A DNA stretch of 34,218 nucleotides from an uncultured Bacilli bacterium (lineage in GTDB: Bacteria; Bacillota_I; Bacilli_A; RF39; UBA660): positions 1 through 34,218 of the forward strand of contig CANPZX010000008.1 of the NCBI GenBank assembly GCA_947589195.1. The letters are read 5' to 3'. Shown here in pieces: positions 1-5,462 of the stretch (the stretch's first letter is position 1; each line of letters opens with the position of its first letter). The position numbers were made by a program, and so were the translations under genes. The notes under the pieces are model-generated. The model had not been told where the DNA came from. It saw nothing but the letters and a program-made list of their open reading frames with translations, and searched no databases.

Positions 1-1150
1 CTAACTCTAGGGCTAATCAGCGTTCTGGGGGGGGGGTATTTTAGTCTATAGGACATATGCTTTGTACCAGGAAGAAAAAGAGTATAATGTCATAAAAGGA
101 ATAATTCCCGATTTTGGCTATGATGTGAAACTAGCTATTAAAGTAGATAAAGAAGAAGTTCAGAGTGTTCCCGAAAGGGGAAATGGTTTATATAAAACCA
201 ATGTAGTATGTAATAATAAAGTAATAGGTAAGTGGGATTATAATGCCTGGAATTTAAAAATTGAAAATCCGAAGAAAGATACAAGATGTACGATAGAATT
301 TACAACTGATGGAATAACTAAAGAACAATACGATGAATATATATCAGAGGGAGTAAGTTTAAGAAGAAATACTTATCGAGGAAAAGATATAACTTCTTAT
401 TATGAAGATGAAAGTTTATATGAGATGATTAGTAGTTGTAGATTTGATGATATTTATGTTGGCGATTATATAAAATCTAGCAACAATACAGAAAATAAAG
501 AAATAACTTGGTTAATCGCGGATTTAAATAATTATTTACATTCGGGATATACTGACTTAAATACATGTCATGCGACAATAATTCCAGCAGAACCTTTAAA
601 AGATGATAAGATGAATGATAGTGCTACTACTGGTGTAGTAAATTCCAATTTAAAACTTAAACAATTGGGTTCTGATACAGAAAGAACTAGCATAGGAGCA
701 TATATGGGAAGTAAAATGAAACAAGAAACATTGCCAAGTATATTTGATACATACATAAAACCAGTCTTTGGTGATAATGTAATAGAATATACCAATTTAT
801 TGGCTGACCAAATGGAAAGTAGTCGTTCGAATCAATTTGGAACAATAAGTGGAGCATCGTCTGGCTGGGCTTGGTATGATAGTCAAGTAGACTTAATGAG
901 TGAAGTCAATGTCTATGGTTCGACTATTTGGTCAAGTAGTGGCTACGACATAGGCATCGATAATAGGCAATATGCTATTTTTAAACTAAAACCGGAATTT
1001 ATCAATAGTTATGGGGATAAAAGATTTAATTATTGGTTAAAGGCGGTCGCCCGCTCTGCGAACTTTGCTACGGTCAGCAACGATGGCGTTGCCAGCACGT
1101 ACGGCGCCTCCAGCTCGCGTGGTGTCCGTCCCCGCTTCCTAATCAAATAA
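1..1150 (+). CDS. Surface-anchored variable protein, 5'-truncated, frame broken at a poly-G tract
   Basis: The gene runs in from the left edge. Bases 1-36 read, in frame 1, as a hydrophobic segment (LTLGLISVLGGG). From base 35 on, frame 2 continues as ILVYRTYALYQEEKEY and then a long extracellular-type protein to 1150. The two halves are separated by ten G (27-36). Nine G would join them into one signal anchor plus ectodomain, while ten G lead to a TAG at 49-51. The TTG at 62 opens the longest uninterrupted frame but has no ribosome site. The middle has a beta-rich repeat-like segment (residues about 20-100). The C-terminus (YWLKAVARSANF to GVRPRFLIK) resembles the C-type-lectin-like domains of the DUF6273 kind found on phage tails and Firmicute surfaces. 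That tail is GC-rich and full of NNC codons, unlike the rest. The family assignment is by eye, and the true start lies outside the window. Confidence 0.7.
27..36 (+). repeat. Poly-G tract (10 G), likely slippage site
   Basis: This is the only long G run I noticed in a very AT-rich window. It lies inside the hydrophobic N-terminal segment of the surface protein. Removing one G restores a continuous reading frame from the window edge to 1150. A homopolymer indel error in the assembly would look the same. Confidence 0.75.
1042..1147 (+). other. Candidate DGR variable region at the 3' end of the surface protein
   Basis: The last ~35 codons switch abruptly to high GC and to C-ending codons (GCC, CGC, AGC, AAC, GGC, TAC, TCC). 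These are the codons produced when AAC/AAT-rich template codons are mutated at adenines. The end, GGTGTCCGTCCCCGCTTC, encodes GVRPRF and is GC-rich like an initiation-of-mutagenic-homing site. No reverse transcriptase or template repeat is in the window, so the call rests on base composition, codon pattern and position at the C-terminus of a lectin-like domain. Confidence 0.55.
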
Positions 1151-3707: not shown

Positions 3708-5462
3708 ATGTTAGGTGAAATACTAGAAATAAGAAATAATTTTATAAAAATTAAAAATAATACCGATGTTAATAACAATATTGTTAATTATTATGTCAAG
3801 GTCCAAGATAAAGAAAATACTTTTGTAGGTGAAATAATTACGTTTACAAAAGAGTTAATCGAGATTAAGTTAATCGGGGAAATTAAAGATAATAAATTTA
3901 TTCATGGTATTAGTAATAAACCAGCCTTTACTTCACAAGTAAGTTTGTTATCGACCGAAGAAATAAAAATCCTTTTTGGAATTAATAATTATAAACCGGA
4001 ACAAAAATTGTATTTAGGAAAAAGTGCTGTTTATAAGGATTATCCAATTTATTTAGATATTAATAATTTATTTGCTAGTCATTTAGTTATTTTAGGAAAT
4101 ACTGGGAGTGGTAAATCTTGTGGAACGGCCCGCCTTTTACAAAATTTATTTTATAAAAAAGATGCTGACCCAGTTAATTCAACTTTCTTTATTATTGATG
4201 CTTATGGGGAATATGAAAATGCTTTTAAAATGATTAATTATTTTAATAAAGATTTACAGTTTAAAAGTTATAAAACGAAAATAAATAGTGATAATATATT
4301 ACAGATTCCGTTGTGGCTTTTAAGCTTGGATGATATTTGTTTGCTTTTAGAAGTTAAAAGTAAAAGTCAAATTCCTATTGTAGAGAAAGCTTTGAAGTTA
4401 GTAAATGTTTTTAAAAGAGAAGAAGAACAAGTAATAAAGTATAAAAATAGTATTATTGCTAGTGCATTATTAGATATTTTTATTAATGGGAAAACTCCCG
4501 CGCAAATAAGAGACCAAATATTTTCGGTTTTATCAAGATATAATACGAAAGCTTTAAATTTGGATACACCAGTTTATGTACCAGGTTATACGAGACCACT
4601 TAGACAATGCTTGTTAATCGATGCATCTGGTAAAATTAGAGAAATGGAATTAGTAGTTAAGTTTTTGCAATCATTTTTATTAGATGAGATGCATTTAGAT
4701 TTACCAGATGGCACGTTTGTTTATTCGTTAAATGATTTGTTATATGCTTTTGATTTTGCTTTAATTAATGAAGGGTTATTAAATAATGGCGAAGTATTTA
4801 ATAATGCTAATGATTTGCGAGTAAGATTAAAGAGTTTAGCAGATAGTGAATTAAGTAAATTTTTTACTTTTACAAAACATTTTACCAAAAAGGAATTTTT
4901 TAATAATTTAACACAACAAAATGGGAAAAAGGTCCAAGTAATAAATCTTAATTTAAGTGAATTAGATGATAGATTTGCTAAAATTGTTGCCAAAATTTAT
5001 TCAAAATTTTTATTTGATTATGTAAAATATGAGGTGCAAAGAGTTGAACTACCTATACATATTATTTTAGAAGAAGCCCATCGTTATGTGCAAAATGATG
5101 CGGATTTAGAAATACTAGGTTATAATATTTTTGAAAGAATAGCTAAAGAAGGAAGAAAATATGGAGTTCTTTTGAATTTAATAAGTCAAAGACCATCGGA
5201 GTTATCACAAACAGTTTTATCCCAATGTAGTAATTTCTTAGTTTTTAAAATAACTCATCCAGCTGATTTGGAATATATTCAGGCGATGATACCTTTTATT
5301 GATGAAGAAATTACTTATAAAATTAAAAATTTACCAACTGGACATTGTTTAGTATTTGGGAGTGCCTTAATGCTACCGACGATAGTTAAAGTTGATTTAG
5401 CGAGTCCAACTCCAAGTAGTAGTAGTTGTGATGTGGCGAATATTTGGTTTAAGAAAAACTAG
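3708..5462 (+). CDS. HerA-type DNA-translocating ATPase (DUF87)
   Basis: The start is the ATG at 3708 behind AAAGGG (584 residues). Residues 1-100 form a beta-rich N-terminal barrel of the HAS type. Walker A is GNTGSGKS near 130-137. Walker B is IILEEAHRYV near 452-461, followed by the arginine-rich EGRKYG segment and ISQRPSE. HerA proteins form hexameric rings that pump double-stranded DNA, usually with the nuclease NurA in end resection or with other effectors in phage defence. No NurA, SIR2 or DUF4297 partner gene lies next to it, so the biological role is open. Confidence 0.85.
   Translation: MLGEILEIRNNFIKIKNNTDVNNNIVNYYVKVQDKENTFVGEIITFTKELIEIKLIGEIKDNKFIHGISNKPAFTSQVSLLSTEEIKILFGINNYKPEQKLYLGKSAVYKDYPIYLDINNLFASHLVILGNTGSGKSCGTARLLQNLFYKKDADPVNSTFFIIDAYGEYENAFKMINYFNKDLQFKSYKTKINSDNILQIPLWLLSLDDICLLLEVKSKSQIPIVEKALKLVNVFKREEEQVIKYKNSIIASALLDIFINGKTPAQIRDQIFSVLSRYNTKALNLDTPVYVPGYTRPLRQCLLIDASGKIREMELVVKFLQSFLLDEMHLDLPDGTFVYSLNDLLYAFDFALINEGLLNNGEVFNNANDLRVRLKSLADSELSKFFTFTKHFTKKEFFNNLTQQNGKKVQVINLNLSELDDRFAKIVAKIYSKFLFDYVKYEVQRVELPIHIILEEAHRYVQNDADLEILGYNIFERIAKEGRKYGVLLNLISQRPSELSQTVLSQCSNFLVFKITHPADLEYIQAMIPFIDEEITYKIKNLPTGHCLVFGSALMLPTIVKVDLASPTPSSSSCDVANIWFKKN

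Follow-up and report, generated by a model that had tools for sequence, protein, structure and literature searches.

The window (the whole stretch of DNA analysed, 34,218 nucleotides; G000:C8:1-34218) opens on a gene for a putative surface protein, the features of which are collected in Table 1. Window base 1 is also contig base 1, and the assembly therefore lacks the start codon of this copy; in complete relatives the ATG is located 24 codons (subfamily A) or 16 codons (subfamily B) upstream of the tract. Inspection of the window confirmed what the initial annotation had described, namely a run of ten G (G10) within a hydrophobic N-terminal segment and, with ten G, an early stop: the hydrophobic frame reads LTLGLISVLGGGYFSL and then meets TAG, and 3′ of the tract an open frame of 370 codons extends to the stop at 1148-1150. 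The longest other run of G or C in the window is 6, and GGG, outside the tract, is used less often in these genes than any other glycine codon (103 of 1522).

Table 1. Coordinates of the surface-protein gene and its parts in the window
Feature	Position	Strand	Remark
3′ part of N-terminal membrane anchor	1..60	+	Start codon left of contig end; intact paralogue L041 begins MKLEKFKKNKRLRNTLLTLGAITALGGGLLVYRTYAL
Poly-G tract, 10 G (putative off length; on length 9)	27..36	+	
TAG met in anchor frame with ten G	49..51	+	
Ectodomain frame, 370 codons and stop	38..1150	+	Member of family with 37 tract-bearing paralogues
Predicted C-type-lectin-like domain, model residues 125-370	410..1147	+	AlphaFold2 model and VIA structure matches
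Putative variable repeat (VR) of a diversity-generating retroelement, 26 variable positions in NNC/NNT/NCG codons, remainder near invariant	1043..1138	+	Matching template repeat in relative, L106 4958-5053

An AlphaFold2 model built from 42 relatives (pLDDT 86.1, pTM 0.81), which supersedes a first model made from the paralogues alone and of low confidence over the variable end, predicts a C-type-lectin-like fold for residues 125-370. VIA matched these residues to 9qa6, the N-terminal part of a Thomasclavelia IgA peptidase (Z 12.9), to a Bacteroides fimbrial protein (Z 8.1), to the C-terminal domain of Legionella Lcl (Z 7.8) and, with middling scores (Z 5-6), to many animal C-type lectins. A sequence search of the PDB with the family profile gave no meaningful match, and scores against Pfam DUF6273 (PF19789) were 16.2 bits for the window and 18.7 bits for the related locus L106, below the cut-off of 23.5 bits. 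The VR corresponds to residues 336-367, which form the final strands and loops in the model, and the tip formed there may bind host, food or phage ligands.

Poly-G tracts across the genome

The gene in the window is present at about 45 places in the 1.35 Mb genome, and a tract is found at the same place in about 62 loci of two surface-protein families. The AT-rich background that had been noted for this tract is borne out (25% GC), and the G-runs far exceed chance: 77 runs of at least 9 G were found against 0.27 expected from a second-order model built from the window (runs of at least 9, 1.35 Mb, both strands). Tracts and copies were read in the DNA stretches around G-runs and family copies, which gave 75 distinct runs of at least 7 G; a length of exactly ten was found in 55. 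When the runs were sorted by the protein that follows them, 37 were assigned to subfamilies A and B of the window's family and 21 to a second one. Judged by local context, the two surface-protein families together contain 62 tracts, with lengths of G10 (51), G9 (5), G8 (3) and G11 (3).

Proteins of the second family have their start a few codons ahead of the tract, followed by LFKSKKV..., a secretion-signal-like segment with a weak SipW-type match (E 0.096), and their ends vary, including PARCEL/DUF285 repeats, FGE-like domains and, by eye, DUF6273-like domains. In some of the G10 copies the tract itself forms an ATG (ATGGGGGGGGGG TTA) 15 bases behind the proper start, which is a possible leak; the ribosome site is not at the right place for this ATG. 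Among individual loci, L065 413-2878 encodes a protein under poly-G control that has 14 repeats of the PARCEL type (Listeria/Mycoplasma lipoprotein), and an acyltransferase-3 gene (Pfam PF01757) has a G10 at its start (L036 551-560), for which the on length is ten. The second-family ends at L017 1944-2156 and L043 1890-2108 consist of GC-rich variable sequence of another kind, which precedes a conserved CCA GTC CTA TAT CTA AAA and is probably a second type of variable repeat with a template of its own.

In both surface families nine G joins the start to the body and ten G leads to a stop within a few codons, the required tract length being a multiple of three in all loci of both families. The prediction that nine G would give an unbroken frame from anchor to ectodomain can be read directly from naturally occurring on copies, with no sequence edited: the G9 copies L041 (393 aa), L080 (375 aa), L057 and L070 have an intact frame, and L086 is in frame. 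A Shine-Dalgarno-like site is present in 24 of the 26 first-family copies that have enough upstream DNA, and promoter-like hexamers, often TTGAAA-17-TATACT, are located about 57 nt before the ATG in many (in 12 copies the promoter-like site scores at least 10 of 12). Since most copies with upstream sequence have their own ribosome site and promoter-like site, they look like switchable genes and not like silent donors. A permanently silent archive, in which most copies serve as gene-conversion donors held off by the frame breaks in their tracts, would fit the many paralogues, the mosaic subfamilies A and B and the fact that almost all copies are off, but is quite improbable given these expression signals, a break that is always the same reversible one, and bodies that are otherwise nearly all open.

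The length of the tract was also checked in relatives. In rabbit-gut Bacilli (two species; mostly Lapin-005 bin63 and bin86) it is found at the same place in 12 loci, 11 of which are G10. These data bear on whether the true length might be nine throughout, with all genes on and G10 a consensus or sequencing artefact. The sequences come from metagenome assembly and many contigs break in these repeats, the rabbit-gut contigs, like those of the window's own genome, tending to end at these copies; however, paralogous tracts of 8, 9, 10 or 11 G are reported at different loci by a single assembly, and G9 is found nearly everywhere in another genome of the bacterial family (G042). Because the same G10 recurs at dozens of loci and in the separate rabbit-gut assemblies, sequencing error is very unlikely. 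Contig C70 has two ends that share 157 bases, one with G9 and one with G10, which may be two copies.

The tract is most likely an on/off switch that changes length by slipped strands, as first proposed for the window's copy. The sequence side of that proposal is strongly supported (by the recurrence at about 62 loci, the frame rule, the G9 copies and the ribosome sites), while the lengths differ among paralogues only; tract length presumably changes in living cells.

The variable repeat and its probable retroelement

The last ~100 bases of the gene have a GC content of 62% compared with 34% upstream, and follow the pattern GCGGTCGCC NNC TCT NCG NNC TTT GCT NNT GTC NNC NNC NNT GGC NNT GCC ... 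GTCCGTCCCCGCTTC. In the window's own genome, 41 distinct ends of this kind were read. Pairwise identity among the 23 best-kept repeats is 0.92 at fixed columns and 0.34 at NN columns; because the two kinds of column were defined on this same alignment, a comparison by codon position provides the independent test. Across 31 copies, identity at the three codon positions is 0.52/0.56/0.64 in the variable end compared with 0.82/0.85/0.60 upstream, an inversion of the usual pattern.

In a diversity-generating retroelement (DGR), a fixed template is copied by a reverse transcriptase that errs at A, and the copy is substituted for the variable end of the target gene. Changes in the 3′ repeat at template A positions, as looked for in a DGR target, were found here: in the 40 repeats of the window's own genome that could be aligned to the L106 template, 61% of template A positions are changed, compared with 15-23% of other bases. 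As read from these alignments, the inverted codon pattern and the A-directed variation are the signature of a DGR, and the window's family can with strong confidence be regarded as a DGR target.

A full retroelement is present in relatives. Locus L106 (rabbit bin86; the same genome as G008, 100% match) carries in a row a target gene, an Avd-like gene (PHROG 3206 'Avd protein of DGR', E 1.1e-7), the template (A at 25 of its 26 variable positions) and a reverse transcriptase (RVT_1, 4e-13) with YMDD and GSQISQ motifs. Three more species of the genus (G019, G017 and G007) have homologous cassettes, with reverse transcriptases of ~70% identity to that of L106 and, in G017 and G007, template-variable pairs. 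A search of the assembly of the window's own genome (88.6% complete) for a reverse transcriptase and template found neither; the retroelement is presumably present in this strain, and we lean towards its still being active there. The two targets adjoining a reverse transcriptase that were read whole (L106 and L279) are intact and have no poly-G; the poly-G tract belongs to the dispersed copies.

Two further repeats were observed. The DGR cassette of L106 also contains, 280 bases before the template and in no target gene, a mutated version of the template repeat (4676-4770), with 16 of its 17-18 differences from the template at template A. A distant relative of the target in Prevotella (roe deer) has beside it a template-like repeat, L143 6591-6686, in which 92% of the same variable positions are A.

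Tracts in other genera and the preferred tract length

Runs of at least 9 G occur in 79 of the 145 genomes of the bacterial family, with a maximum of 77 in the window's own genome and 52 in another, and only 11 genomes of the bacterial family were found to encode the window's protein family. In the sampled genomes of other genera the tracts are located ahead of genes, often between promoter hexamers: TTGCAA-(18-19)-TATAAT in G154 and TTGACA-(18-19)-TATACT in G090. The genes behind the G154 tracts encode secreted proteins with hypervariable ends that by eye are DUF6273-like, and those behind the G042 tracts encode secreted proteins, some with FGE-like ends. In nine G154 genes, codon-position identity is 0.55/0.61/0.57 in the variable end compared with 0.81/0.80/0.62 elsewhere, the codon pattern being lost in the former as it is in the window's family. 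The G154 arrangement appears to be a promoter form of the pairing of poly-G with a variable end in another genus.

Loci L208-L226 are the G154 examples, with a poly-G of 9-10 between TTGCAA and TATAAT (spacer 18-19; for example L208 521-530) before paralogous secreted proteins; in L227-L246, from G042, nearly all tracts are ahead of secreted-protein genes. The window's own genome also has promoter-type tracts, at L023 and L078: a G8 between TTGACA and TATAAT with a spacer of 18 (L078 561-568, minus strand) and a G11 between TTGACA and TATAGT with a spacer of 19 (L023 471-481, minus strand). The small protein behind the L023 tract resembles EsaB/YukD of type VII secretion by eye and has no Pfam match.

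With 51 of 62 tracts at G10, the two surface families are more uniform than a freely drifting tract in a clone would suggest, which counts against switching. In Campylobacter jejuni, tracts of G8-G9 are biased to insertion and those of G10-G11 to deletion (PMC8224891), and a bias of this type, with gain at the shorter and loss at the longer lengths, would hold tracts near 9-10. By analogy, we infer that G10 may be the modal length: because the most common length is what a consensus assembly gives at every locus when the population is mixed, uniform G10 would be no argument against switching. The preferred length differs between genomes, G042 having G9 in 23 of 24 sampled tracts and G154 having 16 tracts of G10 and 6 of G9, and so seems to belong to the genome and not to the gene, which argues against a gene-specific programmed frameshift.

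Such a frameshift, with G10 as a fixed site of polymerase or ribosome slippage through which all copies yield some full-length protein from unchanged DNA, would account for the sharp preference for exactly ten G at about 62 loci and in relatives. It is nonetheless unlikely, as the preferred length looks genome-specific, most G154 tracts are in promoter spacers, where such slippage plays no role, natural G9, G8 and G11 copies exist, and a modal length at all loci is expected from consensus assembly. For the length switch, the fact that nearly all copies are at G10, the off length, makes a mostly-off library the likely design, and we somewhat favour this arrangement over others.

Two proposed layers of variation and their relation to known systems

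The explanation that best joins these observations, to which we assign a probability of roughly 0.8, is that two hypermutation systems act on one gene. In this view the gene encodes a secreted surface protein with a lectin tip, and the tract in its membrane-anchor codons is a length switch worked by slipped strands: nine G would give the full-length protein and ten G a peptide of ~30 residues. The retroelement would rewrite the last ~100 bases of ~40 dispersed copies. The binding properties of the tip would thus be set by the retroelement, and display of a given copy by the G tract; in a mostly-off library each cell would display a few members after losing one G. The initial annotation had recognised the tract switch in one gene, but overlooked the other loci and the retroelement-diversified lectin tip.

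DGRs with C-type-lectin targets, such as BPP-1 Mtd, Treponema TvpA and Legionella LdtA, have a 3′ VR, A-directed variation, Avd, a template, a reverse transcriptase and a C-type-lectin-like fold. The family described here shares with them the 3′ VR, the A-directed variation and the predicted C-type-lectin-like fold, and has the Avd, template and reverse transcriptase in relatives; unlike in those systems, the targets are dispersed away from the reverse transcriptase and carry putative poly-G switches. DGRs with many targets are already known (PMC6642488, PMC10907252): a genome of Thiohalocapsa PB-PSB1 type likewise has numerous targets, part of which are diversified in trans, but there the targets are putative defence sensors, and the paper makes no mention of 'phase variation' (PMC10907252).

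Poly-G phase variation in C. jejuni likewise involves tracts (there G7-G13) in the coding frames of surface genes (PMC8224891), with 29 loci in strain NCTC11168 (PMC4965091); unlike in C. jejuni, here there are 77 tracts of at least 9 G, mostly on two paralogous families of an uncultured gut member of the Bacilli, and the window's family is also the apparent target of a DGR. The Opa proteins of Neisseria gonorrhoeae are adhesins encoded by a dispersed family of ~11 genes that switch by phase variation (PMC3745409). The two systems are alike in being dispersed and, presumably here too, phase variable, and differ in that there are ~40 copies and a mutagenic 3′ end here. Opa variation is not known to have a retroelement origin. 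In the open-licence literature, part of it represented by titles and abstracts, no paper was found that placed a slipped-strand switch and a DGR on the same genes; in one review containing both 'phase variation' and 'homopolymer', the terms stood in unrelated passages. What is new is the combination of two known mechanisms, together with a switchable repertoire that is unusually large for the size of the genome.

For the wider lineage of uncultured gut Bacilli, the chances are about even that there is a two-layer antigen or receptor library, with retroelement-diversified tips and poly-G switches located in reading frames or, in other genera, in promoter spacers, most members being off, and that the family has evolved the pairing in at least two forms. 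The cell appears to vary both the proteins shown and the ligands bound. If this is true, a bacterium would keep the choice of displayed protein apart from its binding specificity, much like immune receptor systems, and the purpose of gut DGRs would become directly testable, since gut metagenomes already available allow both tract length and variable end to be determined for ~40 genes.
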